DNA of 64,000 nt. Origin: Lunularia cruciata. Lineage: Eukaryota > Streptophyta > Marchantiopsida > Lunulariales > Lunulariaceae. The DNA lies in contig OX419757.1 in assembly GCA_948567375.1 (NCBI GenBank), forward strand, positions 25,352,732 through 25,416,731, written 5' to 3'. The position numbers and the translations under genes are program-made. How positions within the stretch are numbered: the first letter of the stretch is position 1; the number at the start of each line of letters is the position of its first letter. This document shows positions 1 through 64,000 of this stretch, piece after piece. The notes under the pieces were generated by a model. It did not search any database. It was given only the letters and a program-made list of their open reading frames with translations, and was not told where the DNA came from.

Positions 1-27
1 CCAAAGAATGATGCAGGCTTTAGAGCT

Positions 28-914
28 TTGTATTCACTCATGAACCGCTCTAGACTTGCTCACCTTACCACATGGGAGTTGAAGAAGGTGCTGTTCAGAT
101 CTCTTGTGCAGCCGGTGGTTCTCTATGGTGCTCAGATTTGGGGTCCAGGTACTAAGAAGACATGGTGGCAAAAGGTGGAGAAAGTTCAGAAATTGTTTTT
201 GTGTGATGAACTTGGGGTGAGGACTCAAACTCCCTATGTATTGCTGCTTGCTGAAATTGGGTTTTTGCCTCTTGAGGCTGAAGCTTTATTTTTAGCTATC
301 ACATATGCCACTAAGGTGAGGTGCATGGAGCATGAGAGACTTTCATTGTTCATTGAGAGACTTCCCTACCAAGCTTTTTGTGCCACTCTATCTGCCGGTT
401 GGTATACAGATCTGGTTGCATGGGCCACAAGGTGGAATGTTTGTGAGCGACATTGGAGGTTGGAGCCTATTGCACTACGAGAAGTGATCAAGGAGCAGTT
501 CTTACTTCGCTTATGGCAGCAGTCTGGTACCAAGATGGTGTTCTATCAGCAGTTTGTAAATCCTATGTTGGTGTATTGTGAGCAAGATTATCTCTTGGCT
601 AGGATTTCTACTTCACTTAGCATGTTATCGCTCAATATAGAACTAGTTCTCATAGACTAGAAGTAGAACAAGGACGTTGGCAGCAGATAGAGCACTCCAT
701 GCAACTTTGCAAATTGTGTATTATGAGCAAAGTTGAGGATGAGCATCATGTGTTGATTGTTTGCCCTTGTTACATGCAGATTAGAGTTAGACATCAGATT
801 ACTTGTAGTGATTTCTCTACTCTCTTACAGGTTGAAGCTTTAGCGTTAGGGAAGTACATGATAGAGGTTAGTTTAGATTGGACCAATTTGTTACAGATTG
901 GTCAGATGCCTTAG
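28..914 (+). pseudogene. LINE ORF2 C-terminal fragment (frameshifted)
   Basis: Residues match the C-terminal ~300 amino acids of the LINE pol seen at 5744-8897. A one-base deletion near 611 (where the other copies read CTTAGACATG) shifts the frame and gives a stop at 658-660. The original frame resumes at about 699 and ends at the family's normal TAG at 912-914 (...QIGQMP stop). The second part carries the CX2C...HHX5C zinc-finger-like motif typical of LINE C-termini. Not functional as it stands. Confidence 0.9.
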
Positions 915-927
915 GCCCTTGCCTAGG
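908..927 (+). other. LINE 3' UTR hairpin next to the stop codon
   Basis: Just after the ORF2 stop, the sequence CTTAGGC-CCTT-GCCTAGG forms a short stem-loop. Every 3' end of this LINE family in the window has the same feature, and most copies have a perfect 7-bp CCTAGGC/GCCTAGG stem. LINE reverse transcriptases commonly recognise a 3' RNA structure; a role here is inferred. Confidence 0.6.
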
Positions 928-1022
928 CTCACATTTCATGCATTTTGTATTGTGTTTCCAGCCTTTTGACTCTTTCGGTCTTTCGGGCTTTATATTTCAT
1001 TGTTCATTGTTCATTGTTCATT

Positions 1023-1860
1023 GGTAGAGGATTGGGTCTTCAGGATCCTTGTTCTGGTGTGTTTTGGGAGATGTTACGGATACTACGACATCTCCAGGTT
1101 CATCTGTTCGTTTCTCTAGCTTACCTTTTGGAGAACGTTCCATGATGGGTGATTCTTGCACCAGAGTGGTGGCGAGTGCACATGAGGTCTATTCTTTGAT
1201 GGGACCTGCTGTATTGTAACATGCAGCCAGAGTGGGATCACGGGCTCATCATCTTTGTCTTTGGTGGATGAACCTCTTACCCAGAGAGGTTCTACAATGT
1301 GCTTATGATGGGATTCAACGACTTGACGACATCCTTGTTGATGATATCTTAGATGTTGGGCGTTAGTCTCAGACAGTGGTAGTGGCTGATTGGTCACCTA
1401 TGGAAGTGGTGAACCTAGTTGGATAGCCTAGAGTTGCATTTCCCACACTCATGAGTTTCCTAGGCTCTCATGCTTTTTGAGAAGGAGGACTTGGACTTGT
1501 TTGGGACTCATAGTTACAGCAGTTGGTGGAGTTCAATGTTGATGAGAGAGAGCAAGCGAGCGATGGGTTTTCGCACCGGGATTACCGTTGTTCCAGCAGT
1601 GTCAGAGGCATCCAGGCGTCAGGTGTTAGGTCAAGCTATGGACCTGAACTGTTTGACCTGGATTGTGAGCCTTGGCTTGGCAGAGCATCGTAGGATGTGC
1701 TTGATAGGCATCACCCCTTAGACACTTGTGAGCCCTGTGCCTATCGAGACGATTCAGGCACGTGTTGGGAGCAATGGACCAAGTGGACATGCTATTCTTG
1801 GGACACATCCAGTAGCTACTAGGGAGAGTGGTCTACTAAGATTCGAAGGAGAAGAGAGAG
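1023..1860 (+). pseudogene. C-terminal half of a retroelement-borne cytosine-5 DNA methyltransferase
   Basis: Translation, allowing one frameshift near 1143 and several stops, gives the late motifs of C5 methyltransferases in order. They are a DPxSGxFWEMLRIL segment, the ENV motif (about 1131-1139), an ARVGSRAHxLxLWW block like motif VIII (1225-1266), a DDILDVGR stretch, a target-recognition-like part, then ERExAMGF and LGQAMDLNCLTW (motifs IX-X, about 1550-1665). It is the sequel to the N-terminal half at 57550-57887, since the codons for Ser-Ala-Gly-Arg join at GGTA. A further ~40 codons continue to ~1860 before the next LINE. The in-frame stops can all be explained by C-to-T changes (CAG, CAA or CGA to stop). 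It is a dead copy. Confidence 0.8.
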
Positions 1861-1861
1861 T

Positions 1862-4481: not shown

Positions 4482-4903
4482 CAAAATCTGAGAGTGGAGT
4501 GGAGTGGAGTTTCGAAAGTTTGAGAGGAGAGGAGTCCTGAAAGTTTGAGAAGCCATATCTCCCTACATACATGTCCAAACGTTGCGGTTTTGGTATCGTT
4601 CGAAGCGCCTTGCCAAGACCTTTCCATAGCCACCAAGATTGTGTCATTCTGAGCTTTGAGCGAAACGTTATGAGTGATTGAAATTTCTGACACAGGAGCT
4701 AGACTTGAGAGTTCGAATCTTCATCATATGGTGTCCAAATGGAGTGATTTTTGTGGCATTAGAAGCGCCTTTGGAAGCTCTTTCGATGCAACTTTTGATT
4801 TACAAGTCCAAAGGAGTTGATTTTTGGTGTAGAGCTATTGGTGTTCACAGAGTGTGAGTGAACCAGAGGATACATTCTCATAGTATCTGTTAGAAATTTT
4901 AGA

Positions 4904-5743
4904 ATGGAAGCTTCCAAGATGATGCAAGACATTGCTGAGATAGCTTCAAAACAGCAACAGCTTGCTGAAATGTATAGAAAAGCAAATGACTTCCACAAGG
5001 AACTCAAGAGCTTTTTTGCCCCCATGTCTCAATGCATGAACACTCTTATGGCAGATTTGCAAACCGTAAGAGTTGATGTCTTGACTGTGAAAGAATCTCT
5101 GAATTCGATCACCGTAGATATCCAAGAACTCAAGAGGAGTAGCAATTTGATGTTAGACTCCACCAAGGGTATGGTGGATGCTACTGAGAAGGTTGCTTCC
5201 TTGGGAGCACAAGCCACCAACATTGCTTCACAAAATGGAGGGCTGCAAGAGATGGTTGACACATTAGAGGTCAAGATGAAGTCATATGCTGAAGCTACGA
5301 AGGTGGCTCAAATCTCTTACTTGCAAGAGCATGAGGTTGAGAAGGAGAACCAATTGGTGAGAATGAAGAACTTGAGGATTTCAGGTTTGCCTGAGATTGA
5401 GAAGGAAGACACCAAGGCCATAGTGTGTGAGTTTATTGCTGATTCTTTGAGAGTCCATGATCCTCAAATTTTGCAAGCATATAGATTGGGACAACAAGGT
5501 GCACAACCAAGAAGCATTTTGGTGAGGTTTGGCTCAGAAACTCAAAGGAATGCAGTGATGGGGAACAAAGCTATACTAAAGGGGCGGCGTATCTGGTTGG
5601 ACCCTGATCTCACACCTCTCCAATGGCAAGCAAAGAAGGGAGAATTAGCAAAAGTGAAGGAGGCTCAACAAGCAGGTTTTGTTGCATTCTTGAGAGATAA
5701 TAGAGCTGTGATTACTCAAAAGAAATTGTCAGCTATTGCATAG
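4904..5743 (+). CDS. LINE ORF1 protein (coiled coil plus RRM-like domain)
   Basis: This 279-residue protein matches the L1 ORF1p plan. Residues ~1-140 are Gln/Glu/Lys-rich with heptad-like spacing (predicted coiled coil). Residues ~153-232 hold an RRM-like unit with NLRISGLPE and SILVRFGS strands, followed by a C-terminal domain with the ILKGRRIWLDPDLT block at ~224-237. Such proteins trimerise and bind the element RNA. The start is the first ATG after the leader and matches the ORF1 start context of the copy ending at 11724. It ends in TAG at 5741-5743, but the same frame continues at once into ORF2, so this may be the minor-stop form of a longer fusion. Confidence 0.88.
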   Translation: MEASKMMQDIAEIASKQQQLAEMYRKANDFHKELKSFFAPMSQCMNTLMADLQTVRVDVLTVKESLNSITVDIQELKRSSNLMLDSTKGMVDATEKVASLGAQATNIASQNGGLQEMVDTLEVKMKSYAEATKVAQISYLQEHEVEKENQLVRMKNLRISGLPEIEKEDTKAIVCEFIADSLRVHDPQILQAYRLGQQGAQPRSILVRFGSETQRNAVMGNKAILKGRRIWLDPDLTPLQWQAKKGELAKVKEAQQAGFVAFLRDNRAVITQKKLSAIA

Positions 5744-5758
5744 CAATTCCAGACCTTT
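5729..5758 (+). promoter_or_regulatory. Candidate UAG readthrough site between LINE ORF1 and ORF2
   Basis: The junction reads GCA-TAG-CAA-TTC-CAG. Flanking protein is conserved and in one frame on both sides. The context resembles the plant-virus CAR-YYA readthrough signal, with C instead of A at the sixth base. The copy at 58399 keeps the same TAG; the copy near 10873 has AAG (Lys) and an uninterrupted fusion. No in-frame ATG precedes the endonuclease Asn. Confidence 0.6.
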
Positions 5759-8700: not shown

Positions 8701-9079
8701 TAGAACTAGTTCTCATAGACTAGAAGTAGAACAAGGACGTTGGCAGCAGATAGAGCACTCCATGCGACTCTGCAAATTGTGTATTATGAGCAAAGTTGAG
8801 GATGAGCATCATGTGTTTGTTGATTGCCCTTGTTACATGCAGATTAGAGTTAGACATCAGATTACTTGCAGTGACTTCTCAACTCTCTTACAGGTTGAAG
8901 TCATGAGAAAACTCAAGGCCCAAGTACTTGTAAGAAGAAACCTGTTCCAATTGCTGTCCATCAAAAAAGAAAGGTGTGACACCTTTAGAACCCACCACAA
9001 TCACCTTGGACTTGTCAAGGTTCACCTCCATCTTTGTTTGATTGCAAAACAAGAGAAGAGAATCCAACAACTTCTGTAA
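5744..9079 (+). CDS. LINE ORF2 pol: EEP endonuclease and reverse transcriptase
   Basis: In frame with ORF1 after one UAG. The endonuclease begins at once: LFWNVHG supplies the catalytic Asn, then NLVETW (Glu), LGDFNAR (Asp/Asn) and SDHAPL (Asp-His). The first in-frame ATG lies well downstream of the WNVHG motif. The reverse transcriptase follows with AFIDFRKAFD (first Asp), GVIQGCSLSP and ALLYADDVVLLS (YADD at about 7838-7850). A CX2CX8HHX5C zinc-finger-like motif lies near 8770-8830. The family sequence ends at ~8897; the last ~60 codons to 9079 are antisense of another copy, so the natural C-terminus is replaced. Otherwise open throughout. Confidence 0.9.
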   Translation, partial: QFQTFRVLFWNVHGLTHTKYSSAKPLWDDADLINLVETWEHEGNTIQDIEGFTLVGSTWNKRRQHKGRGFGGIATYVRFGFEKSVSLIGQDSSGQYHWLRIGGVATPCFIAVCYFAPLTSPIYSSGLLNTMQPFHSLTKDVLEFQSKGAVLVLGDFNARIQASQIPDLSDLENDPFHSLIDHSSAWSRSSKDPMSNSMSEHFLSFGANCSLKILNGLSQFPETCKSTCFASGGSSTIDYMLTSANDIHLVSDFAVLDPQPESDHAPLSCTILFPCLNRTTLPIDHAFRGKLRLDFHKRDLYQQAIQEKLSSMEWSSDFQQRSDQLIELLQSTSTSLFPRGSHRKRLGLPCNRWYDADCKMARIKAMDRSLDQIAQNQAFVLYKKLVKCKKRAFLRLKGVELSTELRSNPKAFWKKVTIRSPSPSLDLNELCDYVKDLYFFPNAPSMAPCLGSALTISEADVKYQLKKLANGKAEDLDGLCVEFLKWGGSQLISVLTSHLNEAIKCGFPDRWCFKKVVPIHKSGQRDVVTNYRTILVGSVFAKLYGRILESRLSTWAEKHKIRAKCQAGFRLGFSTLDHLLVLHVLWCKSKGVGRALYVAFIDFRKAFDKVLRKSLSERLIEVGVSADLIGAISRLYEKVIVKLSSLSSQDVLSTMGVIQGCSLSPTLFGIFIDDLESLLMEAGATGVQVGSLMIHALLYADDVVLLSTNPQSLQKLLDSLLCFCNETKMEVNLDKSKVIVVGSKGVTPFFFDGQQLEQVSSYKYLGLEFSHDYSWSTCVKMRINAGFRALYSLMNRSRLAHLTTWELKKVLFRSLVQPVVLYGAQIWGPGTKKTWWQKVEKVQKLFLCDELGVRTQTPYVFLLAETGFLPLEAEALFLAITYATKVRSMEHERLPYQAFCATLSVGWYTDLIAWATRWNVSERHWRLEPIALREVIKEQFLLRLWQQPGTKMVFYQQFVNPMLVYCEQDYLLARISTSLRHVIAQYRTSSHRLEVEQGRWQQIEHSMRLCKLCIMSKVEDEHHVFVDCPCYMQIRVRHQITCSDFSTLLQVEVMRKLKAQVLVRRNLFQLLSIKKERCDTFRTHHNHLGLVKVHLHLCLIAKQEKRIQQLL

Positions 9080-9972: not shown

Positions 9973-11724
9973 TCAAATCTTGCTTGTGAAAATCAAGACA
10001 GAGTTTCCTCTTAAGGCATGGTCAATAGGTAATGTGGTTCTATTGAGGCAAGAAAGAAGGATGACACAAGATAAAGGTGCATAGTCAGATTCAAGTTGAG
10101 GATCTAAAACAACAAAATCTGAGACAATGTGTATATCACTGGGTGAGGTGAGCATATAATCTATAGTGCTGGATCCACCAGAAGCAAAGCATGTGCTCTT
10201 ACAAGTTTCTGGAAATTGAGAAAGGCCATTCAAGATCTTCAAGCTACAATTGGTACCAAAGCTCAAAAAGTGCTCACTCATGGAGTGGGATATGAGATCT
10301 TTGGAAGAGCAGGACCAAGCACTAGAATGATCTATCAAGCTATGGAAAGGATCATTCTCAAGGTCACTAAATTCAAGAATCTGAGAGATTTGGATCCTAG
10401 CATTGAAATCACCAAGGATAAATACTGCACCTTTACTTTGAAATTCCAACACATCCTTTGTCAAGGAGTGGAAAGGCTGCATGGTGTTGAGAGATCCGCT
10501 TGAATAGATTGGTGATGTCAATGGGGCAAAGTAACAAACAGCAAGGAAGCAAGGTGTGGCAACTCCTCCAATCCTCAGCCATTGGTATTGTCCACTTGAG
10601 TCTTGACCTATCAAAGAGACTGATTTTTCAAAGCCAAATTTGACGTAAGTTGCAATACCTCCAAAGCCCCTTCCTCTGTGTTGCCTCCGCTTGTTCCAAG
10701 TTGAACCAACAAGAATGAAACCTTCAATGTCTTGAATGGTGTTTCCTTCATGTTCCCATGTCTCCACAAGATTGATCAGATCAGCATTATCCCACACAAG
10801 TTTAGCGCTTGAGTACTTGGTATGTGTGAGACCATGAACATTCCAAAACAACACTCTAAGGGTCTGGAATTGCTTTGCGGTAGTTGACAACTCCCTTTGG
10901 GTGATCACAACTCTATTGTCTCTCAAGAATGCAACAAATCCTCCTTGTTGAGCCTCCTTCACTTTTGCTAATTCTCCCTTCTTTGCTTGCCATTGGAGAG
11001 GTGTGATATCAGGGTCCAACCAAATACGCCGCCCCTTCAATATAGCCTTGTTATCCATCACTATATTCCTTTGAGTTTCTGAGCCAAACCTCACCAAAAT
11101 GCTTCTTGGTTGTGCACCTTGTTGTCCCAATCTATATGCTTGCAAAATCTGAGGATCATGGACTCTCAAAGGATCAGCAATAAACTCACACACTATGGCC
11201 TTGGTGTCTTCTTTCTCAGTCTTTGGCAAACCTGAAATTCTCAAGTTCTTCATTCTGACCAATTGGTTCTCCTTCTCAACCTCATGCTCTTGCAAGCAAG
11301 AGATTTGAGCCACCTTAGTAGCTTCAGCATAAGACTTCATCTTCACTTCTAATGTGTCCACAATCTGTTGGAGTCCTCTGCCTTGTGTAGCAATATTGTT
11401 GGCTTGTGCTCCCAAGGAAGCAACTTTCTTGGTAGCATCAACCATCCCCTTGGTTGATGTAAACAAAGAGATAGAACTCTTCTTGAGGTCTTGAATCTCA
11501 TGGTTGACTAGGTTCAAAGACTCTTTGACGCTACTGATCTCAACCTTTACAAATTCCATATCAGTCATGAGAGTACTCATGCACTGTGACATAGGTGCCA
11601 TGAAGCTTCTAAGGTCCTTGTGGAAATCATTTTCTTTCCTATACGTTTCAGCTAATTGTTGTTGCTTCATGGCTATATCAGCAATGTCTTTCACCATGTT
11701 GGACTCCTCCATTGTGACAATCAC
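9973..11724 (-). pseudogene. LINE ORF1-endonuclease fusion (sense codon instead of UAG)
   Basis: An open frame of 583 codons covers all of ORF1 (coiled coil, RRM-like NLRISGLP, WLDPD block) and runs directly into the endonuclease (LFWNVHG, NLVETW, LGDFNAR, SDYAPLS). At the position where other copies have TAG this copy has AAG. The open frame is lost at ~9973, near RGNSVLIF, by a frameshift relative to RGKLRLDF. It shows that ORF1 and the endonuclease lie in one frame without any linker. Confidence 0.85.
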
Positions 11725-37300: not shown

Positions 37301-40300
37301 GGAAATACTTGGGACAACTCCCATTGAAATAGGTAATATTGGGGAGGAGGTGAAATGACAGCAGGATGAGGAGATGCTCAGAAGAAGAGAGGATCAGATC
37401 TGAGAGTGAGAACTTCATCTTCATGGGATTTATTAGATGACAATAACTGATCTGTCCCAATTCGGTTCTCTAGAATGACAACATCTTGTGAGATGATAAT
37501 TCGATTTTCATTCTTCCGTTCCAAGCAAGATCCTTTACTTTCTTCACTCTAACCCAAGAAAATACATGTTGCGGTTCGGAAATCAAGTTTGGAGCGCAGT
37601 TTAGGGTTTACGGTCATTGATATGGGCAAAAGCAGGACTGCCAAATAATCAGAATGCCAAACACTCGGAAGTGTTTTAAAGAAGGCTTATGTCCATACTT
37701 ATGTCCAAGATTTATGTGTATAAGGGGTTTTCGGGAGATAATGCTTTGCTGGGGCTGCGGGTCTGGACATAGTTTGCTGTGATAACTGCTTCTGCCCAAT
37801 AAGTCTTTGATAAATTTGACTCATATAACATGCACAGAACGGCATTGACGAGTGTTTGATTTTTGCCTTCTGACTATCCTCTCTGCTGAGGAGTGTAAGC
37901 TACTGAAAATTGTCTCTTTATGCCTCTAGAAGAACAGTACTCGTTAAAATCATCACTCTTGTATTCTCCAGCATTGTCACATCTCAACATCTCAATCTTT
38001 GAGTGAAAATGATGCATTTCAACACTGAGAGAATACTGCGTGAAACAGGTTAAGGCATCTGATTTATTCTGCATGAGACATAGGAAACAGTATCTAGAGA
38101 AATCATCGATAAATAATATAAAGTATATATAAGCCGAATGTGTAGGAGGTTATATTAGATTACATATATCTGAATGGTAGAGACCAAGTAATTCTTTGGC
38201 TCGAGTGGCAGGTTCAGTAGAAAATGGTACTTGGGATTGTTTGCCATATAAACAAGACGTACATAGAGAAGGCGGTTGATTCTTCATTGAGAAATTCGGA
38301 ATATCTACAACGAGATCTTTTGAGAAAAGTTTATGAGGCTTTTTGTGAACAGTTGATGAAGTCTATCAGCGCTTGTGTGGCCCAATCGACTATGCCATAA
38401 TTCACAGTGATGATGGACAGTAGTACAAGCATCTATTCGAGAAGGGAAGACTGTAACACCAAGTTTATATAAGTCTGTTGTCAAAGGGCATGTAGCAATT
38501 ACATTGTCTTGACTGTCGAGCAAAATACAATGTTGTTTATTCACTAACGCATATCCTTCTTCAAGATCCAGTGCTTGATGGAGAAAGATTTCTCCTTAAA
38601 CCTAGGATGTGCAAAACGTTGTATGAATTTTTGAATCACCTTGGGGAAGGCGAACAGTCACTTGACCTAAACCAATGGTATCTTGGGAGGAGTTATCACC
38701 AAGATTGACTTTTCTAGATGTGGCATAAGGTTGATAAGTAATAAAACTATCTTTCGAGTGACACATGTTATGAGTGGCCCCCGAATAAAAATACCAAGAA
38801 TTATCTTGGCTTGAAGAAGATATCGTATTGTAAGCAAGTACAGTATATAAATAAATGGCAGAATGTGCTTGAGCTTTTGATCGTTGTGAATTTGCTGCAA
38901 ATTCCTCAAAAAATTCGTTTTCTGCAATCCTTGAAGTGATGTCCAGTTAGATTGCAGTAGAAACATTTCATCTTCTTCTTGAGATTTCGTTGATTGGCTG
39001 TAGAAGGTCTTGATGAAGATGGTGAAGTAGCTGAAACACTAAAGGAGCCGTTTTTGCCTTTGCAGAAATTTTGATTCTTCCAGTTCCCTGCATTGGACTT
39101 GTTTCTTGAAGGAAAATTTCCCTTAGAAGTATACAATGCAGTTGTGGGCTCAGACATCTGATTCTTTAATATTTTCTCCACCTGAAGGAGATATGTTATT
39201 AGCTTCTGCAAAGTCAGATTTTACTGACCTCGCAATTAAGTCAAAAGGGTTCGGAAACTGTTTGGCATGCTACACATCATAGCAAGCATTTGATTTTTGT
39301 CAGAAGATAGTTAGTCAACGAAAGTTATGAAGCGATGAACTTGTTTAGTAAAGCTGTCACCTTCCTTCATTTGAGCATCTGAAGTTCATCTTGCAGATAC
39401 ATTAGAGTTACAGCATTTTGAGCTTCATATAATTGCTCGAACATAGTCCAAGCTTCTGATGCCAGTCGGGAAGAACTTACATGATGAATCTGACTGTCAT
39501 CAAGTCGATTCATTATAAAAGATAATGCAAAAGCATTATTCCAATCAGCAATACTACCAGGGCCTGTCAATGGCAACACGGGAACTGTAGCAGCTGTTTG
39601 ACCAGCCTGTGCGAGAGTAGCAACAGGCTGAGGGGGACAGGGCTGAATACCATCGATTATCCCCATGAGCCCTGTAGCTTGGAGAAAAAGGCTCATTCGT
39701 AATTTCCAAATGGAATAATACATCCCATTAAAGTTCAGGATAGCTTCGCCCTTCGACATTGTAGTTTGCCTCATCATCACACCAGATGTTGAATAAACCG
39801 AAGGAATTCCCGAGGTAAGTCTCAAGACCTTGAAACTTTTAGTTGACTGTAAGCAACTTGACAAAATACTGCAGTTTTGCGTCGGTTATTAAAAGGCAGG
39901 TAGAGACGGGGTCTTCAAGATGAAAAGATTTGGATAGAAGTTCTCCAAATCGAGATATAAAACAATATTCAATCGAATCTTAAACTGAAAAAATATGTGA
40001 GTGGGTAGCCCCAGGTTGGGTCCGGTAAATTTGGTATTTTCATATCAATATATGTACTGTTACTTTAATTGCTTTATCTTGAATCTAAATTCAAGATATG
40101 GGTTGCCAGAAATCGTCACGCGACAGTCAAATTGAGGTAGATTGATCAGTTGGTTTGCGTTGATAATCAACTGGATTCAGTTTTGCAGGTCGCTCAACTT
40201 GGAATAATTGAATTTTTCAGAGTAAGATTGTTCACCGAGCAATTTCATCAGGGGGATTTCTCTCCTGAAATTGGTATAGGAATTACCCAGTTTCGGTTCA

Positions 40301-47535: not shown

Positions 47536-47909
47536 TCCAAACTTTACACTGTAAGGGAGTGTGAAGATGTCCTCCTCTGCGTATTCTCATGCTCAGGATT
47601 TACCATGATGATTGTAAAACCCCTAAAAGCAGGCTGACGAGCAACATTGACTCGGTACTTAATAGGCTGTAGCAGGGTTGCTGGACGACGTCCCTTATAC
47701 TCCGTTAAAGGGTTTGTTTCCGAATAATGTTTTCACACTTGGTGTCATGATTGCTTTCTGCGCAGTCTGAACTGGCCTGAGGTTTAAATTCGCACTTTTC
47801 TGCAATCTCGAGCATTGTAGATATAGAAGGGTGACATCAGTCGCCAGTGTACAGATAGCATAGAACACATAATTTTCCAAAAAGCTTAGGAGAAATTTCA
47901 TCGATCTCC
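47536..47909. other. Upstream region of the ankyrin gene
   Basis: Lies between the RLE element 3' end and the ankyrin start codon, and probably holds its promoter and 5' UTR. No obvious TATA box. Confidence 0.35.
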
Positions 47910-48392
47910 ATGACGGTGCCACTTGCAAATGGGACACTGGAAGCATTACTTACAGCAGCAGTAACACGCGAGTTTCTCGAAGCAGCTCGCTATGGGGATG
48001 TGGAAGATGTGCAGGCCGTAGTCGCTGAAGGAATTCTCGTAGACTCGCAGGACGAGCAAGGCCGAACTGCCCTACACATGGCCTGTGCGAATGGGCATTT
48101 GGAGGTTGTGCAGTACTTGATCGGGCAGGGGGCGGACGTGAATTCGAGGAACGAGGAGGACAATACTCCTCTCCACTACGCTGCCCTGAATTGCCATACT
48201 CCGGTGGTTCAGGAACTCATTGCTAAAGGCTCCGATGCAGCGGCTCTTAACAAGTATGACCGGACTCCTCTCGATGAGGCACTTGGGAGAAATAACATGG
48301 CTGTGGTTGAAGCTATCAATACTGCAGCTGTGGCGCAGTCTCTTGGAACTAGTTCCATCAGCTCCGTGGAAGTAGAAATTGGCAAGGAGTAG
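47910..48392 (+). CDS. Small ankyrin-repeat protein
   Basis: Uninterrupted 160-residue frame, single exon. Four ankyrin-type repeats are visible: residues ~19-50 (FLEAARYGDVEDVQAVVAEG), ~52-84 (GRTALHMACANGHLEVVQYLIGQGADVN), ~86-117 (NTPLHYAALNCHTPVVQELIAKG) and a C-terminal cap repeat ~119-138 (RTPLDEALGRNNMAVVEAI). Helical cores and TPLH/TALH turns are intact, so the fold should be stable. The acidic tail ends VEVEIGKE. Small proteins of this form (YAR1-like) occur across eukaryotes as protein-binding modules; the partner cannot be read from sequence. It has no premature stops, in contrast to the surrounding elements. Confidence 0.85.
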   Translation: MTVPLANGTLEALLTAAVTREFLEAARYGDVEDVQAVVAEGILVDSQDEQGRTALHMACANGHLEVVQYLIGQGADVNSRNEEDNTPLHYAALNCHTPVVQELIAKGSDAAALNKYDRTPLDEALGRNNMAVVEAINTAAVAQSLGTSSISSVEVEIGKE

Positions 48393-52836: not shown

Positions 52837-54279
52837 CTAATAGTTCGGACATGATAAACCTGCCATACCGCAGGTAAGATTTCAGAGTCATGCAAGTTGC
52901 AAGGTCTACAAATAATTGGAGCATCCAAAAAAGCTGTCATGTTATTTGTAATGTCGCATCTAGATACTTGGACATCGGAGTTCCAATGATAATAGTTAGA
53001 GTTATTTTAGTAGTTTCTCAGAGATTATTTTTTGACGGTCAGATTTTGTGTTTGGGATATTGATTTCATGATGGAGCCCACCATCATTTTGCACCGTTCG
53101 CGTCATTGAGTGTGCCGTCAGTGGGATCGTTAGGGTTTCAGAGCTAGCTCGAGTCCAGGAGTATAGTTTTGAAATGAGCTCCAGAGAGCTCACTTCTCTG
53201 ATGTTGAGCTTTCGAGTTCTTGGTTATGGTGTACAGAGGTCGGCAAACGTCTCTTGGATTCTCTTTGCTTGAGTGTGTGTGGCTTTATTGTAATCAATGC
53301 CAAGTTATTGGCAGTTTATAGAGTGACAGATCAAACACTGATCTGAGTTGAGTTGAGTTGAGAGTGGTAAGCAATCTGATTACATCAGAGAAGTGAAATC
53401 AGGAGGAAATCGGGTGCAAGAACTTTGAGTGTTGGTGGTATCTCCAAGCTCAGTGGATTGTTGGTAGCTCGATTCAAGTTCAGTGTTTCCCTAGTGTGCA
53501 GAAGCTCATTCGATTGATGCAGATTTTACAGTAAGACAAACGGTATGCTGAAGCGTCGGCCAAATTTTGAGGAAAGAAGGGGCAAATTTCGAGCAGTGGT
53601 TGTGATTTTGAGCTCAAGAGGTGAAGGTAGGACCAATTTGCTGCGAGTTGGGCTCAGAAAGTCAAATTGAAGATGGAGTTGGGAAGTTATTCTCATGAAT
53701 TTGTGATTTGGAAAAACTCGTGTTGTCAATTTGGCTCGAGTGGAAAGTTAACGAGGGACTTGGCAAACATCCAACTTTAGAGTTTACGTCAGATTCTGGT
53801 GGGAATTTACATCAGATTTTGGCTAGATTTGGAAGAATTTCGCTGGTTTGGAGGAGTTTCGTAGATTTGGAGAAGTTTCGTCAATTTTGGAGGAGATTCG
53901 AAGTGGCAAGAAGAAAAATCTCATTTGGCTGAATTTTGACATTTAGAGGTTTTGAAGTTGTGGGCTATGAGAGGCTACGAAGGCCTAGAAGGGCCAGCTT
54001 ATTAGCGTGAGGCTAGCTAATTTAGAGTAAATATTGTTCATTGGTTGGCAAAATTTATCTTTCTTGTTAGATTATACGCAACAAGGTTTGACCCCTAGAT
54101 CTCTTGTTCCTAGATTGGTACTCTAGCTAGCTGGTCCACCTTCATTTGTTATCATAGTGATTGTGTCACTGTTATCTATACACATGTAGCTTTGGCTAGG
54201 AGAGGCAGTTTGATCTCATTCTCGGTGATCTTAGTAGTTTAAGATTTAGATACAAACTTCTCTTATGTCAAATATCAAA
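52837..54279. other. Probable leader/LTR region of the gypsy-like element
   Basis: No gene supported. The region leads to the putative primer-binding site at 54280 and probably includes LTR sequence, but I found no second copy in the window with which to set its ends. Confidence 0.35.
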
Positions 54280-54295
54280 TGGTGGTAGAGTCAGT
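54280..54295 (+). other. Possible primer-binding site of the gypsy-like element
   Basis: TGGTGGTAGAGTCAGT resembles a mutated TGGTATCAGAGC-type Met-tRNA site and lies ~0.4 kb before gag. Confidence 0.35.
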
Positions 54296-54889
54296 CCCGT
54301 ATTGTGTGATGGAGGGTTTTTGTTTAAATTTCTTGTGATTGGACCCATTCCATTCTCTGTTTCTTGTTTGTGCACCACGTTCGTGAGAGTGACTTTTGAG
54401 CGCTGGTGCTTTGGTGTGCTCTCGGTGGTGAGGCTGGAGTGATGACCAGTCAGACTATCTTTGTTTCTCTCCGGTGAGGCAAGAAGTGATGACCTGCAGA
54501 CCGTGAGAGTGCGTGTTATGATGACAGGTTATAGATTGCCTTTTCCTTTAGTGTAATTATCTCGGTTAGAGTTACATTAGTGGGTGGTGCTTAGTTGGTA
54601 TTGGCACTTGGTGGTGTTGGCACTTGGTAGGGTACTTGCGGTTACGACTTGCGGTTGCAGTTGGTGGTTCGGGTTTGCTGTTGCGGTTATTTGGTCACAA
54701 CGGAGTTCTTTGGGGATTCCAAAGGAGATAACTCTACAGTACGTAATGGGTTTACTCTGAGTGGTGCTCGGTATCAGTCTGTATCTCAGGTCCCAATGAG
54801 GGAGGAGATTGACTCTGAGTTGGAGTTCGACACAAGAGCTGATTCAGTTGAGAGTGCACTTGGTGTGTCCGCACCGTTGTTGTGGGACA

Positions 54890-55720
54890 TGGACAAGATT
54901 TATGGGCCTCCAAAGGCCCTAGGCGTTACTTTGGTACAATGGGTATCATTGAGTTGGATGGCTTCATCCAGAAGTTTGATAGTTGGTGTGATTTGCAGTA
55001 GATACGGAACCCAACTTTGTTTACACCCTTCATGGCATGGAAGGGGTTGTTTCAACACTTGGAGTGTCCGCCGATGGATGACTACCATGAATTCAAGAGA
55101 GTTCATTTGGAGGAGATTGAGTTATGGAGACAATATTGGTCTCCACACTATGTCTCCATCATTTCACGCTCAGTGGCCAGGAGTAGATCTGCTGTACCTA
55201 TGAGTTCTAGCTCGAGTAGTGTGGGTGGAGCTAGTGGAGATGCACTAGTTGGAGATAGTGCTACTACGAGTGGAGGTATCGTTGCAGGAGGTGGTGTGGT
55301 ATCGGGGTTTAACCCCGTGGTGGAGTGCTTTCTATGTTTGAGGTAGAACTACTAGGAAGTGCAGACTGACAAGTTGAGGAGCTTGTAGGAATTCCAACAG
55401 AAGGCTAGAGAGAGCATATGCAAGGCATACACTCGCATGAGGCGGCCGATCAGTTTCACTCAAGGAGTTATTGAGGCCCAAGTAGTCAAGTTTTGGTATG
55501 GGATACTGGACAAGGAGTTGCAACGTAGAGTTCGTGATGCTACGTTGTTACAGGCTACTTCGTCTACTTTGGCAGTGGTCTTTGGTTTGGATCAGCGTAT
55601 TGAGCTCAACATGGTGGAGGAGAGAGTAATGACATCTAGATTTGGTAGAGAGATTTCATCCACAGTTGTGACTTTTTCTAGAGTGCAACAGAGTGCACCA
55701 TGCCCAATTGGTTTTTGAGG
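54890..55720 (+). pseudogene. Gypsy-like gag
   Basis: Allowing frameshifts and a stop near 54999, the translation contains a gag-like FIQKFDSWC, TLFTPFMAWKGLFQHLECPP, EEIELWRQYWSPHYVSI. After a Ser/Gly-rich linker comes TQGVIEAQVVKFWYGILDKELQRRV and ERIELNMVEERVM-like sequence to ~55650. It resembles Ty3/gypsy gag capsid regions. Non-functional. Confidence 0.6.
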
Positions 55721-55826
55721 ACAATGTGGACAGCTCAGATCCTATGGAGCGAGTGGAGGGCCTAGTGGAGTTAGACCTTTACCCTCATTTTTGGGTCAGC
55801 AGCAACCAGTAAGTGGTGGTGTTGCT

Positions 55827-55964
55827 TGTTGGACTTGTGGTGGACCTCATCATCGAAGAGAATGTACTCATGCAGTGGACCTGATACCTTGGGTGTATCA
55901 CAGCCAACACAGAGGCAGTGTGAGCATTGCCACAGATTTGGCCACACTAGTGACCGGTGTTTTG
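55827..55964 (+). pseudogene. Two gag zinc knuckles in different frames
   Basis: The first, CWTCGGPHHRREC, is a CCHC knuckle one residue short. The second, CEHCHRFGHTSDRC, is a perfect CX2CX4HX4C in another frame, so a frameshift lies between them. Confidence 0.7.
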
Positions 55965-56839
55965 ACCTACACCCAGAGTTACGGAGTGGTCGGGCTGCTA
56001 TGGCAGGTAGTAGAGGAGCTCCAATTCATGGAGGACGAGGTGGTAGAGGATCTACACCTAGTAGGTGTGCAGTACCTGCCCTTACTTTTGACACAACTAT
56101 GGTTACTCGGATTGAGCAATTGGAGTAGAGATTGGCTAGTATGGCTATTGTTCAGAGGAGATCAGATTTGGGTGCTGAGGCTTCCACCTCATATGCTGGT
56201 GATAGAGATGCTTTGGACTTCATGTGCGGAGCAGCACAGGTGGATGCATCTGCAGCAGTGACTAGGAGTGCAGTACGTGCTCCAAAGCCTAGAGGAGCAT
56301 TAGTGGAGTTGGACCCACAAAGAGGAGAGGTTGGGAGACAGGTCAGATTTCCCCAGTCTGTCACGCTATCTGAGGTATTGCAGACGACATCCATGGTTCC
56401 TAGACGTCTCAGTGCATGTGTGGTAGGTGGTGATGGAGTACATGATGGACTACTTACTAGTCAACCACCTGCTACTACACAAACTGAGTCTAGCATGATG
56501 TTGGGACCGACTAAGTTGATTATGCAGCGTCCTCTATTTTTGGCCAATGACATGTTTACATTGGGAGTTGACCCAACCCCAGTGTTCCGGTTGGCTGTCA
56601 CGTGGTGTGAGAGTAGGGATGGTGAGGTTCCTACTACCAGAGCAGAGGTGGTTGGTAGTGGAGCTGACTTGGTTGAGGAACATGAGATTCGTTCAGCGAC
56701 CAATGGTTTATGGCATACAACAACGGCTAGGTTGGAGGAGTTGCCAGCTAGACCAACCTTTGAGAGAGCGCGGTTTACACCTAGTGTTGTCCTATTGGAT
56801 AACCAGAGGGGATTTTTTGTTTGGTAGAACCTTCAAGGA

Positions 56840-57150
56840 AGGTCTATACACCACAGAGAGTCTTGTTAGACTCTGGTGCAAAACTCTTTATGTCAAGGAA
56901 GGCTGCAATTGTCGGTCTGGAGTTACGGAAGACCGATGTAGAGAGGTGTCCATTTCAGATCCAGACATCTCTAGGTGGTGGTTCGACATAGTACATCACA
57001 CGTGAGGAGCTTGTTGTCCAGGTTCAACCTGGCCATCCGACTGATAGCTCGGTGGTGAGAGCTCAGGCTATTGCAACAATAGTTGAGTCATATGATGTGC
57101 TAGTTGGGGGAGCAGTGTTATACCTCATGGGTTTCAACATTGACTATTGG
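56840..57150 (+). pseudogene. Retropepsin-like aspartic protease
   Basis: VLLDSGAKLFMSRKAA holds the Asp-Ser-Gly-Ala active site (56869-56880). ~75 residues on, the YDVLVGGAVLYLMGFNIDYW segment matches the C-terminal strand region of retroviral-type proteases (usual IIGMDWL). A TAG (56989-56991) interrupts it. Confidence 0.65.
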
Positions 57151-57549
57151 GAAGAGATAACCTCTTATAGACCTGGTTGGCAGTTTGGTGAGGGATGGGT
57201 ATATCGCCTACCAGTACGCTTCAGTAGTGGCAGTCTTGGCTCACTACAGTCCGGGACCATGGGAGCATCAGTTTTAGCTTTCAGTGGTGCAATTACTTGG
57301 CCTGGTGACTTGTTGGAGTGGAACGCCCATGCAGAGGATACTCCAATACTAGAGAAGATCACTCGACTTTGGAGTACGAGTGGGATTGTTCCATCCACCT
57401 TGGATATTCTATTGTGGAGTTTAGAGGAGGCATTGCAGCAACATGCACATCAGTTGGTGCAGCAGGCTTGGAGTGGAGCCTTTGTATCATCAAGAGATGA
57501 GTATGAGGATGAGCCTCTAGAGGCGATTGCTTTGACACCTGTGGATACC

Positions 57550-57887
57550 ACACTCATTGCTTGGCAGTATCTTGTAGAGGGGATATGCCTATTGGAGTTG
57601 TTTGGTGGGATTAGCACCGGACTAGTTGCGGTATTACATGCGGGTATAGCAGTACAGAGGTACTTGTATGTAGAGAGAGATGAGACTGCTAGGCGAGTCT
57701 CTCTATATCATATGGCAAACTTGGCCTATCGGGTATCCGGAGTTATTACCAATGTCAGCAGTTAGAGGTTACCAAAAGGCCCTACCAGCTGACATTTCCT
57801 TACGGAGGGCGCATGACCTAGAGAGACATGGACCTATTCATTTGGTGATTTCTGGATGGCCATGTTAGGGACATACAAGTGCTGGTA
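57550..57887 (+). pseudogene. N-terminal half of a retroelement-borne cytosine-5 DNA methyltransferase
   Basis: Motif I reads LLELFGGISTGLVAVLHAGI (57588-57647), the SAM-binding loop. It is followed by RYLYVERDETARR (motif II-like acidic residue). After a frameshift near 57760, LPADISLRRAH (motif III-like) and GPIHLVISGWPC (motif IV) follow, with the catalytic Cys codon TGT at 57863-57865. The next codon is TAG where Gln (CAG) is expected, then GHTSAG. It is cut at GGTA (57884-57887) by LINE DNA. The following motifs VI-X are found in the copy at 1023-1720. Such an enzyme would methylate cytosine C5 in DNA; this copy is dead. Confidence 0.82.
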
Positions 57888-57945
57888 CTTTGAGCCTATT
57901 GCACTTCTAGAGGTGATCAAGGAGCAGTTCTTACAAGGAGCAGTT
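57888..57945 (+). mobile_element. LINE scrap at the insertion boundary
   Basis: About 45 bp (TTTGAGCCTATTGCACTTC...GGAGCAGTTCTTAC) match the late ORF2 of the LINE (8522-8570) and precede the true LINE 5' end. Probably a template switch during insertion. Confidence 0.6.
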
Positions 57946-58065
57946 TTAGAGATGAGATTTTCCCAAAACTTCAAATAGTCATATCTCAGTACTTGCTCAT
58001 CCAAACCTTATGATTTTGGTCTTGTTTGAAGCGCCTCGCCAAGAGCTTTCCATGGACACAAAGAT

Positions 58066-58401
58066 TATTTCCAAGGCCATAGTGTGTGAGTTTATTGCTC
58101 ATTCTTTGAGAGTCTATGATCTTCACATTTTGCAAGCATATAGATTGGGACAACAAGGTGCACAACCAAGAAGCATTTTGGTGAGGTTTGGCTCAGAAAC
58201 TCAAAGGAATACAGTGATGGATAACAAGGCTATACTGAGGGGCGGCGTATTTGGTTGGACCTTGATCTCACACCTCTCCAATGGCAAGCAAAGAAGGGAG
58301 AATTAGCAAAAGTGAAGGAGGCTCAACAAGCAGGTTTTGTTGCATTCTTGAGAGACAATAGAGCTGTGATCACCCAAAGAAAGTTGTCAACTACCGCATA
58401 G
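58066..58401 (+). pseudogene. LINE ORF1 C-terminal part
   Basis: Contains the RRM-like AYRLGQQGAQPRSILVRFGS block. A one-base deletion near 58242 (in the run before GGCGGCG) breaks the frame. The terminal TAG-CAA-TTC is kept. Confidence 0.8.
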
Positions 58402-59850
58402 CAATTCCAGACCCTTAGAGTGTTGTTTTGGAATGTTCATGGTCTCACACATACCAAGTACTCAAGCGCTAAACCTATGTGGGATGATTCTGATCTGATC
58501 AATCTTGTGGAGACATGGGAACATGAAGGAAACACCATTCAAGACATTGAAGGTTTCATTCTTGTTGGTTCAAGTTGGAACAAGCGGAGGCATCACAGAG
58601 GAAGGGGCTTTGGAGGTATTGCTACTTACGTCAGATTTGGCTTTGAAAAATCAGTCTCTCTGATAGGTCAAGACTCAAGTGGACAATACCAATGGCTGAG
58701 GATTGGAGGAGTTGATACACCTTGCTTCCTTGCTGTTTGTTACTTTGCCCCATTGACATCACCAATCTATTCAAGCGGATCTCTCAACACCATGCAGCCT
58801 TTCCACTCCTTGACAAAGGATGTGTTGGAATTTCAAAGTAAAGGTGCAATACTTATTCTTGGTGATTTCAATGCTAGGATCCAAACCTTTCAGATTCCTG
58901 AGTTTAGTGACCTTGAGAATGACCCTTTCCATAGTTTGATAGATCATTCTAGTGCTTGGTCCCGCTCTTCCAAAGATCTCATATCCAACTCCATGAGTGA
59001 GCACTTTTTGAGCTTTGGTACCAATTGTAGCTTGAAGATCTTGAATGGCCTTTCTCAATTTCTAGAAACTTGTAAGAGCACATGCTTTAATTCTGGTGGA
59101 TCCAACATTGTAGATTATATGCTCACCTCACCCAATGATATACACATTGTCTCAGATTGTGTTGTTTTAGATCCTCAACCTGAATCTAACCATGCACCTT
59201 TATCTTGTGTCATCATTCTTTCTTGCCTCAATAGAACCACATTACCTATTGACCATGCCTTTAGAGGGAAACTCCGTCTCAATTTTCACAAGCGAGATTT
59301 GTACCAACAAGCTATCCATGAGAAATTGAGCTCTATGGAGTGGAGTTCTGATTTTCAACAACGTAGTGATCAATTGGTTGAACTTCTTCAATCTACATCA
59401 ACAACTCTATTTCCACGAGGTTTTCACAGGAAGAGACTTGGTCTCCCTTGCAATAGGTGGTTTGATGTTGACTGTAAAATTGCAAGGATCAAAGCTATGG
59501 ATAGGTCTCTTGATCAGATTGCACAAAATCAGGCTTTTGTCTCTTATAGAAAGTTGGTGAAGTGCAAGAAGCGAGCACTCTTGAGACTCAAGGGGGATGA
59601 GTTGAGCATTGAATTGAGGAGCAATCCTAAGGCTTTTTGGCAAAAAGTAACCATCAGATCTCCATTTCCATCGCTGGACGTGAATGAGTTTTGTGAATAT
59701 GTGAAGGATCTGTACTTTTACCCTGATGCTCCAAGCATGGCACCTTGCCTTGGATCTGCTCTCACCATCTCTGAAGCTAATGTCCAGTACCAATTGAAGA
59801 AGTTGGCCAATAGTAAGGCTGAAGACCTTGATGGACTATGTGTGGACTAT
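58402..59850 (+). pseudogene. LINE ORF2 endonuclease, RT interrupted
   Basis: Endonuclease motifs LFWNVHG, NLVETW and LGDFNAR are present; SNHAPL has Asn for the usual Asp of SDHAP. The frame is open up to 59850, where the nested LINE cuts the RT at LDGLCV. The RT resumes at 60446. Confidence 0.85.
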
Positions 59851-60445
59851 GATGGCCACTAGGTGGAATGTTTCTGAGCGACATTGGAGATTGGAGCCTA
59901 TTGCACTACGAGAAGTGATCAAGGAGCAGTTCTTACTTCGCCTATGGCAGCAACCTGGTACCAAGATGGTGTTCTATCAGCAATTTGTAAATCCTATGTT
60001 GGTGTATTGTGAGCAAGATTATCTCTTGGCTAGGATTTCTACTTCACTTAGACATGTTATTGCTCAATATAGAACTAGTTCTCATAGACTAGAAGTAGAA
60101 CAAGGACGTTGGCAGCAGATAGAGCACTCCATGCAACTTTGCAAATTGTGTATTATGAGCAAAGTTGAGGATGAGCATCATGTGTTTATTGATTGCCCTA
60201 GTTACATGCTGATCAGAGTTAGACATCAGATTATTTGTCGTGATTTCTCTACTCTCTTACAAGTTGAAGCTTTAGCGTTAGGGAAGTACATGACAGAAGT
60301 TAGTTTACATCGGACCAATTTGTTACAGATTGGTCAGATGCCCTAGGCCCTTGCCTAGGCTCACATTTCATGTGTTTTGTATTGTGTTTCTAGCCTTTTG
60401 ACTCTTTGGGTCTTTCAGGCTTTATATTTCATTGTTCATTGTTGT
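59851..60445 (+). mobile_element. Nested 5'-truncated LINE with short TSD
   Basis: Carries only the last ~170 codons of ORF2 (RWNVSERHW...QIGQMP, stop at 60344-60346), the 3' hairpin and a TTCATTG tail. The host sequence GACTATGTGT | TGTGTTGAACT duplicates TGTGT. A filler GGACTATG repeats the adjacent target. Confidence 0.8.
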
Positions 60446-61345
60446 GTTGAACTACTTAAGTGGGGTGGTAGCCATCTGATTTCAGTGTTCACTTCTCTCT
60501 TGAATGAGGCTATCAGGTGTGGCTTGCCTGATAGATGGTGCTTCAAGAAGGTAGTTCCAATTCACAAGTCTGGTCAGAGAGATATTGTCACCAATTATCG
60601 TACCATTCTAGTGGGTAGTATCTTTGCCAAATTGTATGGTCAAATTTTGGAGTCTAGGTTGAGTACTTGGGTTGAAAAGTACAGAATTCAAGCTAAGTTC
60701 CAAGCGGGTTTCAGATCAGGCTTTAGTACTTTGGATCATCTATTGGTACTCCATGTTTTGTGGTGGAAATCTAAAGGTGGTGGGAGAGCTCTCTATGTTG
60801 CATTTATTGATTTCAGGAAGGCCTTTGATAAGGTGCTTAAGAAATCATTAAGTGAGAGACTCATGGAAGTTGGTGTCTCAGCTGATCTGATTGGTGCTAT
60901 CTCTAGACTCTATGAGAAGGTGGTTGTGAAACTTTCATCTTTGAGCTCTCAAGATGTCCTTAGCACAATGGGTGTGATTCAAGGTTGCTTTTTATCCCCA
61001 ACATTGTTTGGAATCTTCATCAATGATCTAGAGAGGGTGCTTATGGAAGCTGGAGCTACAAGTGTACAGGTTGGCTCTTTGATGATACATGCACTCCTTT
61101 ATGCAGATGATGTAGTGCTCCTCTCTACCAATCCACAAAGTTTACAAAAGTTGTTGGATTCTCTTCTCTTGTTTTGCAATCAAACAAAGATGGAAGTGAA
61201 CCTTGACAAGTCCAACGTGATTGTGGGTGGGTTCTAAAGGTGTCACACCTTTCTTTTTTGATGGACAACAATTGGAGCAGGTTTCTTCTTACAAGTACTT
61301 GGGCCTTGAGTTTTCTCATGAATATAGTTGGTCTACTTGTGTGAA
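60446..61345 (+). pseudogene. LINE reverse transcriptase, remainder of interrupted copy
   Basis: ELLKWGGSHLISV through AFIDFRKAFD, GVIQGCFLSP, ALLYADDVVLLS and EVNLDKSNVI. A one-base insertion at ~61226 shifts the frame; similarity continues to TGTGTGAAGATGA (61345), where the inverted copy starts. Confidence 0.85.
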
Positions 61346-64000
61346 GATGAACAATGAACAATGAACAATGAAATATAAAGCCCGAAAGACCCAAAGAGTC
61401 AAAAGGCTGGAAACACAATACAAAACACATGAAATGTGAGCCTAGGCAAGGGCCTAGGGCATCTGACCAATCTGTAACAAATTGGTCCGATGTAAACTAA
61501 CCTCTGTCATGTACTTCCCTAACGCTAAAGCTTCAACCTGTAAGAGAGTTAAGAAATCACTACAAGTAATCTGATGTCTAACTCTAATCTGCATGTAACA
61601 AGGGCAAACAATCAACACATGATGCTCATCCTCAACTTTGCTCATAGTACACAATTTGCAAAGTCGCATGGAGTGCTCTATCTGCTGCCAACGTCCTTGT
61701 TCTACTTCTAGTCTATGAGAACTAGTTCTATACTGAGCAATAACATGTCTAAGTGAAGTAGAAATCCTAGCCAAGAGATAATCTTGCTCACAATACACCA
61801 ACATAGGATTTACAAATTGCTGATAGAACACCATCTTGGTACCGGGCTGCTGCCATAAGCGAAGTAAGAACTGCTCCTTGATCACTTCTCGTAGTGCAAT
61901 AGGCTCCAACCTCCAATGTCGCTCACAAACATTCCACCTTGTGGCCCATGCAATCAGATCTGTATACCAACCGACAGATAGAGTGGCACAAAAAGCTTGG
62001 TAGGGAAGTCTCTCATGCTCCATGGACCTCACCTTAGTGGCATATGTGATAGCTAAAAACAAAGCTTTAGCCTCAAGTGGCAAAAACCCGGTTTCAGCAA
62101 GCAACAATACATAGGGAGTTTGTGTCCTCACCCCAAGTTCATCACACAAAAACAATTTCTGAACTTTCTCCACCTTTTGCCACCATGTCTTCTTAGTACC
62201 TGGACCCCAAATCTGAGCACCATAGAGAACCACCGGCTGCACAAGAGATCTGAACAACACCTTCTTCAACTCCCATGTGGTAAGGTGGGCAAGTCTAGAG
62301 CGGTTCATGAGTGAATACAAAGCTCTAGAGCCTACATTGATTCTCATCTTCACACAAGTGGACCAACTATAGTCATGAGAAAACTCAAGGCCCAAGTACT
62401 TATGAGAAGAAACATGCTCCAATTGCTGTCCATCAACAAAGAAAGGTGTGACACCTTTAGAACCCACCACAATCACCTTGGACTTGTCAAGGTTCACTTC
62501 CATCTTTGTTTGATTGCAAAAGCAAAGTAGAGAATCCAACAGCTTCTGTAAACTTTGTGGATTTGTGGAGAGAAGCACTACATCATCTGCATAAAGGAGT
62601 GCATGTATCATCAAAGAGCCAACCTGTACACCTGTAGCTCCAGCTTCCATGAGTAGACTCTCTAGATCATCGATGAAGATTCCGAACAGAGTTGGAGATA
62701 GAGAGCAGCCTTGGATCACACCCATTGTGCTAAGGACATCTTGAGAGCTCAAAGATGAAAGTTTCACAATCACTTTCTCATAGAGTCTTGAGATAGCACC
62801 AATCAGATCAGCTATAACACCCACTTCAATGAGTCTCTCACTTAGAGATTTCCTGAGCACCTTATCAAAGGCCTTCCTGAAATCAATAAAGGCAACATAG
62901 AGAGCTCTCCCAACACCCTTAATTTTCCACCACAAAACATGAAGTACTAATAGGTGGTCCAAAGTACTAAAGCCTGATCTGAAACCAGCTTGGCACTTAA
63001 ATCAAATTTTGTGCTTTTCAGCCCAAGTGCTCAACCTTGACTCCAAAATTCGACCATACAACTTGGCAAAGACACTACCAACAAGTATGGTACGGTAATT
63101 GGTGACAACATCTCTCTGGCCAGACTTGTGAACAGGAACTACCTTCTTGAAGCACCATCTATCCGGAAAGCCACACTTGATTGCCTCATTCAAATGAGAA
63201 GTGAGTACTGAAATCAGCTGGCTACTGCCCCACTTCAGGAGTTCAACACATAGTCCATCAAGGTCTTCAGCCTTACCATTGGCCAACTTCTTCAATTGGT
63301 ATTTGACATCAGCTTCAGAGATGGTGAGAGTAGATCCAAGGCAAGGTGCCATGCTTGGAGCATTTGGGAAAAAGTACAAATCCTTCACATAGTCACAAAG
63401 CTCATTTAGGTCCAGCGATGGAGATGGAGATCTGATGGTTACCTTCTTCCAGAAAGCCTTGGGATTGCTCCTTAGTTCAGTGCTCAACTCAACTCCTTTG
63501 AGTCTTAGAAATGCTCGCTTTTTGCACTTCACCAACTTTCTGTATGAAACAAAAGCTTGATTTTGTGCAATCTGACCAAGAGATCTATCCATAGCTTTGA
63601 TCCTTGCCATTTTGCAATCAGCATCATACCACCTATTGCAACGAAGACTGAGTCTCTTCCTGTGGGAGCCTCTTGGAAACAAAGAAGTTGATGTAGATTG
63701 AAGAAGTTCAATCAATTGATGACTACGTTGTTGAAAATCAGAACTCCACTCCATAGAACTCAATTTCTCTTGGATAGCTTGTTGGTACAAGTCTCTCTTG
63801 TGAAAATCTAGACGAAGTTTGCCTCTAAAAGCATGGTCTATAGGTAATGTGGTTCTATTGAGGCAAGGAAAAAGGATGGTACAAGATAGAGGTGCATGGT
63901 CTGATTCTGGTTGAGGATCTAAAATAGCAAAATCTGAGACAAGATGGATATCATTAGCTGAAGTGAGCATATAATCTATGGTGCTTGATCCACCTGAAGC
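61346..64000 (-). mobile_element. LINE copy, minus strand, runs off the window
   Basis: Tail of CAATGAA units at 61346-61370, 3' UTR hairpin (61439-61456), and ORF2 from its stop at 61454 up to the endonuclease at 64000. It is inserted in the plus-strand LINE after TGTGAAGATGA. Confidence 0.92.
61454..64000 (-). pseudogene. LINE ORF2 (endonuclease C-terminus, RT, zinc finger), one stop
   Basis: One frame holds the end of the endonuclease (SDHAPLS), RT motifs AFIDFRKAFD, GVIQGCSLSP, ALLYADDVVLLS, and the C-terminal CKLC...HH...C. The only break seen is a TGA at about 62999-63001, where other copies have CGA. N-terminal part lies beyond the window. Confidence 0.88.

Follow-up and report, generated by a model that had tools for sequence, protein, structure and literature searches.

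A predicted DNMT3-like cytosine methyltransferase carried by an abundant Ty3/gypsy-type retrotransposon family of the liverwort Lunularia cruciata

Retrotransposons that carry a cytosine methyltransferase are on record for dinoflagellates and for a single charophyte alga (available part of PMC5890265), groups that the original prediction for the present DNA had also named. In Klebsormidium nitens, KnitGypsy-Dnmt3 is a Gypsy element with DIRS-like repeats that holds a DNMT3 in its Pol open reading frame (ORF), and evidence of purifying selection on this DNA methyltransferase (DNMT) was reported (de Mendoza et al. 2018, PMC5890265, available part). SymbioDIRS-Dnmt3 of Symbiodinium, described in the same available text, likewise is a retroelement with a DNMT3, and its enzyme was active on CG in yeast. 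Here, we analyzed a 64,000-nucleotide stretch of Lunularia cruciata (GCA_948567375.1, contig OX419757.1, 25,352,732 to 25,416,731, forward strand), hereafter the window, which holds a decayed element named copy A. We read copy A, with a probability of roughly 0.6, as a dead member, interrupted by a long interspersed nuclear element (LINE), of an abundant Ty3/gypsy-type family with a DNMT3-like C5-cytosine methyltransferase; the estimate includes putative steps of complementary DNA (cDNA) methylation, stop-codon readthrough and circle opening.

In copy A, gag, two zinc knuckles and a DSGA protease site lie upstream of methyltransferase motifs I and IV in the same orientation, as the original prediction had claimed, although they are spread over several frames. 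Motif I (LLELFGGISTGL) occupies window 57589-57624 and motif IV (SGWPC) 57851-57865, in two frames; a frameshift near 57733 breaks the methyltransferase, and a TAG stop (57866-57868) directly follows its catalytic Cys. The element starts approximately 2 kb upstream of gag, at a 448-bp terminal repeat located by blastn, and the ATG at 54888 is the positional counterpart of Met1 in the Marchantia protein P0002. When relatives were compared with the window by tblastn, the gag part was matched at E 1.2e-142, window 56788-57904 at E 4e-99 (P0002) and the C-terminal methyltransferase half at 1023-1678 at E 5e-52 (protein P0018). The top score among 20 dinucleotide shuffles of the window was 26.9 bits, compared to 314 for the real sequence. 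A PDB comparison of a 71-residue piece around motif I returned 32 matches with weak E-values from 0.037, comprising 29 DNMT3 chains, one single-chain variable fragment (scFv) and two entries (4onj and 4onq) labelled just "DNA methyltransferase", which we take to be a DRM; the C-terminal methyltransferase piece gave chance-level matches alone. The proposed check against the Pfam DNA_methylase family had a divided outcome, as neither Pfam (E<=1) nor NCBIfam matched any of the broken pieces in the window itself, whereas PF00145 exceeded its cut-off in 13 of the 16 relatives compared with it (6/8 and 7/8). No reverse transcriptase (RT) or integrase of this element was found within the 64-kb window by tblastn with relatives.

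Motifs VI to X had been placed at 1023-1720 in a second copy. This half of the enzyme is present, but an independent second copy was ruled out when the stretches flanking the window on the left and right were compared. Window 1-4982 recurs at 66012-71000 with 99.78% identity, the 7 kb that precede the window recur at 59012-66011 with 99.87% identity (9 mismatches), and the C-terminal half that belongs to copy A, nearly identical to the one inside the window, is found 3 kb past the right edge (L075:3047-3817). The tandem duplication measures approximately 66,011 bp, with 99.8-99.9% identity where compared, and the window covers one of its units; the two halves, seen in its two units, are therefore a single LINE-split element viewed twice. 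On one natural copy of the family, the gap between the two halves amounts to 4 nt (query 528 and 533). The duplication may be real and recent, or it may be an assembly effect. A target-specific LINE was also considered for the common junction and was dropped, since three LINE 3' flanks differ and the duplication accounts for the junction.

The architecture of the family, whose element measures approximately 10 kb, was read in pieces from the copy at C2:54266196-54276159 (9964 bp). ORF1 runs from gag and two zinc knuckles through the protease to the DNMT; ORF2, which carries one in-frame stop in this copy, encodes RVT_1, RNase H, H2C2 and rve followed by a C-terminal PHD finger (E 5e-11). For the larger part of ORF2 (own-genome copy L053), the best solved match was Ty3 Gag-Pol; those of the PHD finger include CHD4, KMT2D and PHF12, and its C4HC3 pattern was observed in 9 of 10 further copies. 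The CCHC knuckles and aspartic protease were recognised by motif, and Pfam matches of gag (E 0.01-0.05) and protease (P0001, E 0.0012) all stayed below curated cut-offs. The two ORFs share a frame and are separated by TAG in all 26 copies with the site found (30 examined), the following six bases being CAGCCA in 23, CAGCTA in two and CAGCCT in one. We take TAG-CAG-CCA to be the UAG-CAR-YYA readthrough context of tobacco mosaic virus (TMV) type.

Searches of the window's own genome covered 565.8 Mb in 74 contigs, and their match totals are lower bounds. With P0018, at least 111 full-length methyltransferase domains were scored (13362 candidates), and each of the 111 listed covers residues 2 or 3 to 366-368 of P0018 at 72-74% identity. 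Counted by eye, 66 of these 111 have no stop inside the domain, and 10 combine a stop-free domain with frames >=1428 aa. Of 24532 candidates for the integrase end plus PHD finger, at least 142 were scored as matches, with 97-100% identity, and 21 of the 142 listed lie in stop-free 1037-aa frames (by-eye count). Similarly, PF00145 gave at least 123 scored matches among 2161 candidates; 20 of these loci were fetched, yielding 15 element copies and five other methyltransferases. By motif, we take the latter to be DNMT3-like (L002 and L005, a fragment), DRM-like (L003 and L016, partial) and CMT-like (L004); the rearranged motif order is visible in L003.

These copies bear on whether a host C5-methyltransferase gene stands beside a gag-protease by chance, the case that was to refute the original prediction. 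The broken state of copy A speaks for such adjacency, and nothing further does. In contrast, a single predicted Marchantia protein, P0002 (1278 aa), extends from gag through the two knuckles and the protease to a methyltransferase with motifs I, IV, VI, VIII and X; long frames persist in many own-genome copies, RT and integrase follow downstream in the copy read, and the other own-genome methyltransferase loci sit elsewhere, those DNMT3- and DRM-like ones that were compared being 28-30% identical over the N-terminal half. We therefore give chance adjacency practically no credence, and the placement of the methyltransferase within a Ty3/gypsy-like polyprotein is supported.

The ends of the family were analyzed in 11 copies, of which 10 have frames >=1428 aa plus a stop-free domain and one has a stop. 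The repeats follow the order A-coding-B-A-B, in which A is 449 bp at the 5' end and B approximately 106 bp, and the termini read TGTC...GACA. The internal B|A junction GACAGCTGTC was present in 11 of 11 copies, and an exact 4-bp target duplication flanked all ten copies with both ends; the 5' end of the eleventh was not found. Within each of the ten, the two A repeats are 96.4-99.6% identical, and the family has apparently been active recently. ATCAGAG, which we take to resemble an initiator-tRNA primer site, follows A in 9 of 10 copies, and a G-rich tract lies upstream of the first B in the 10 copies where that B is whole. Ordinary ends made of long terminal repeats (LTRs) were ruled out, since the 3' repeat of every sampled copy runs on into the same B sequence. 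Like Ty3/Metaviridae elements, the own-genome copies have gag, CCHC knuckles and protease, the order RT, RNase H and integrase, a Ty3-like RT, a DDE integrase and a short target duplication; unlike them, they add DNMT and a PHD finger, and split repeats replace the two like LTRs at the two ends. Split direct repeats are a DIRS trait, but in place of the DIRS tyrosine recombinase the family has an rve integrase, and the 4-bp duplications are such as a DDE integrase makes despite the DIRS-like repeats.

KnitGypsy-Dnmt3 is the closest described element, likened here by its published description; no K. nitens sequence stood among the listed database matches. Both combine an unrearranged DNMT3-type domain, an LTR Gypsy element and DIRS-like repeats, so the present family can be regarded as a variant of the same kind. 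The available text places the K. nitens DNMT in the Pol ORF, whereas the DNMT of the present family shares ORF1 with gag and protease and precedes TAG-CAG-CCA. The present family further has a PHD finger and target duplications, and none of the terms PHD, split and target site appears in the available main text of PMC5890265. SymbioDIRS-Dnmt3 shares the A-coding-B-A-B repeats; according to the same available text it uses a tyrosine recombinase, in contrast to the DDE integrase and 4-bp target duplications observed here. Four features are new here: the family is abundant in this plant, its DNMT precedes a readthrough-type stop, it has a PHD finger, and its insertions are flanked by target duplications.

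The kinship of the methyltransferase was analyzed by motif order, fold, identity and trees. Motifs I to X stand in unrearranged order, a trait of DNMT3, whereas DRM is rearranged, and by profile and fold the enzyme is nearer to DNMT3 than to other C5-methyltransferases, among solved structures only. It shares motif order, fold and the HRxR motif VIII with plant and animal DNMT3, although identity to them is approximately 30%. Motif IV is PCQ in 39 of 45 element domains, in place of the PCN of DNMT3A; the host DNMT3-like loci L002 and L005 also have PCQ. DNMT3 proteins carry PWWP and ADD as companion domains, neither of which was seen in ORF1 of the element. An origin from a phage or bacterial Dcm-type gene, not from a eukaryotic DNMT3, draws on the same comparisons: over the N-terminal half, identity is 28-31% alike to host DNMT3, DRM, DNMT3A and phage Dcm, and in the N-half tree a phage enzyme is nearest to the elements, a position without support (63/13.6). 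The DNMT3 grouping in that tree had an approximately unbiased p-value (p-AU) of 0.33-0.34 and was thus neither supported nor rejected. We consider the Dcm origin improbable.

Relatives of the family were found mainly in bryophytes. A first protein search gave 17 matches, including 14 from Marchantia polymorpha and one from Sphagnum fallax. The knuckles, protease and methyltransferase motifs of P0002 are incompletely represented in several other gene models; the Sphagnum model P0017 joins gag, methyltransferase, RT and integrase parts without motif IV and the DSGA site. A second search with five domains gave 309 matches, and 13 of the 14 organism-labelled ones among the best 120 are bryophyte (Marchantia polymorpha, Marchantia paleacea, Riccia, Calypogeia and Sphagnum), the remaining one being labelled as a bacterial metagenome-assembled genome (MAG). 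A tree was built from 45 domains out of 137 proteins, 92 having been dropped for coverage under 80%; its bryophyte-labelled rows fall within one clade of 25 (100/99), beside further lineages. Among the latter, P0037 and P0045 have protease-end-like sequence ahead of the methyltransferase. P0032, P0035, P0042, P0063, P0079 and P0097 are further divergent element-type lineages at 44-54% identity; P0042 is filed under a Candidatus Obscuribacterales MAG, and is probably a stray eukaryotic contig. The viral contigs yielded one phage (L001) with an ordinary Dcm-type gene, and the search of genome contigs yielded no confirmed relative. Among the titles and abstracts that searches of an open-access library returned, none could be recognised as describing such elements from liverworts or mosses, subscription papers and supplements being outside the scope. 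Neither the available part of the Marchantia review PMC9516144 nor that of Yaari 2019 (PMC6453930) mentions such an element.

From these features, a life cycle can be proposed. From ORF1, the methyltransferase would be produced at the level of Gag, and occasional readthrough of the stop would supply the products of ORF2. The putative primer site beside A and the purine-rich tract beside B could direct reverse transcription to products with B-A terminal repeats, and the palindrome GACA-GC-TGTC at the B|A junction may be where the integrase opens an intermediate that is circular or DIRS-like. We infer that the element enzyme methylates DNA; packaged in the particle, it would methylate the new cDNA, such that an insertion would be already marked on arrival, and the PHD finger may tether the integrase to a histone mark. 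The original prediction had suggested that an element with its own methyltransferase could alter its own silencing. A wider reading is that a writer (packaged Gag-level DNMT3) and a reader (integrase PHD finger) form one lineage, kept since before the liverwort/moss split, that would pre-methylate its cDNA and run Ty3-type integrase chemistry on DIRS-type topology via the B|A palindrome. We offer this only tentatively.

Alternatively, the methyltransferase could be a passenger, captured once and tolerated with no role in the life cycle. The stop inside the domain in 45 of the 111 listed copies (by-eye count) fits this idea. However, the domain is retained in both liverwort and Sphagnum elements, its identity to P0002 (69.8%) exceeds that of the gag-to-linker part of ORF1 (55.8%), and its ratio of nonsynonymous to synonymous substitutions (dN/dS) is 0.35-0.39 in samples biased to intact copies; a mere passenger thus appears improbable. 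The enzyme could also target the host or other copies, not its own cDNA, for example by limiting the copy number of the element or interfering with host silencing. The decay of copy A, mostly C>T and G>A, suggests that copies are methylated by some enzyme, and a PHD finger together with a DNMT suggests chromatin work. Nevertheless, the location of the DNMT in ORF1, on the gag side, suggests that it is packaged into the particle, and we consider a target of this kind somewhat unlikely.

Several observations weigh against the proposal of a packaged enzyme acting on its own cDNA. In yeast, no methylation by the K. nitens enzyme could be detected, a result its authors judged inconclusive (PMC5890265, available part). 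The copies were chosen for protein score, Pfam motif or frame length, a choice that lowers dN/dS and enriches for intact ends. Identity to P0010 is 64.8% for DNMT, 64.3% for RT and 66.9% for RNase H-integrase, and to Sphagnum P0017 it is 49.6% for DNMT (a gapped gene model), 74% for RT and 82% for integrase, such that RT and integrase are conserved at least as well as the DNMT. The C>T direction in copy A was deduced against a single reference copy, and for the putative readthrough and circle-opening steps, sequence context is the sole basis.

The features of copy A and its interrupting LINEs are collected in the table. The LINE family (APE endonuclease plus RT) occupies window 4862-9079, 9973-11724 and 57937-64000, with nested copies up to 100% identical; its 1111-aa ORF2 had 4 matches at E<=1e-20, the best at 34% identity. 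Elsewhere, a Ty1/copia-type remnant lies at 39367-39885 on the minus strand (copia gag, Pfam E 4e-7), and an ankyrin-repeat open frame at 47859-48389 is likely a host gene or a piece of one.

Table. Positions of element and LINE features in the 64,000-nucleotide window.
Feature	Position	Strand	Basis or remark
Copy A, decayed Ty3/gypsy-type element	52935-57885	+	terminal repeat, leader, gag, knuckles, protease, first half of DNMT
5' terminal repeat A, 448 bp	52935..53382	+	blastn; 86% identity to repeat A of G000:C2:54266196 copy
Leader, repeat A to ORF1	53383..54592	+	84% identity to C2 copy
gag, frameshifted remnant	54888..55865	+	tblastn with Marchantia P0002 covers 54906-55865
First zinc knuckle CWTCGGPHHRREC, spacing C-x2-C-x3-H-x4-C	55827..55865	+	translation
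Second zinc knuckle CEHCHRFGHTSDRC, canonical CCHC	55919..55960	+	translation
Aspartic protease active site VLLDSGA (DSGA at 56869-56880)	56860..56880	+	sequence; relatives have LLDSGAQP
N-terminal half of DNMT3-like C5-methyltransferase, motifs I to IV	57454..57885	+	ends at LINE insertion
Nested LINE retrotransposons	57889..64000	.	split the methyltransferase
3' part of the element-splitting LINE	1..1022	+	left tandem unit
C-terminal methyltransferase half, motifs VI to X, left tandem unit	1029..1799	+	blastn against C2 copy
End of methyltransferase and ORF1 tail	1604..1837	+	94% identity to C2 copy; cut by further LINE sequence before the ORF1 stop

With relatives in Marchantia and Sphagnum, the element allows the question of why a transposon would carry a transposon-silencing enzyme to be addressed in plants that are amenable to experiment. 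Testable predictions follow on dosage from the TAG-CAG-CCA stop, on targeting from the PHD finger, and on integration from the split repeats and their 4-bp duplications.
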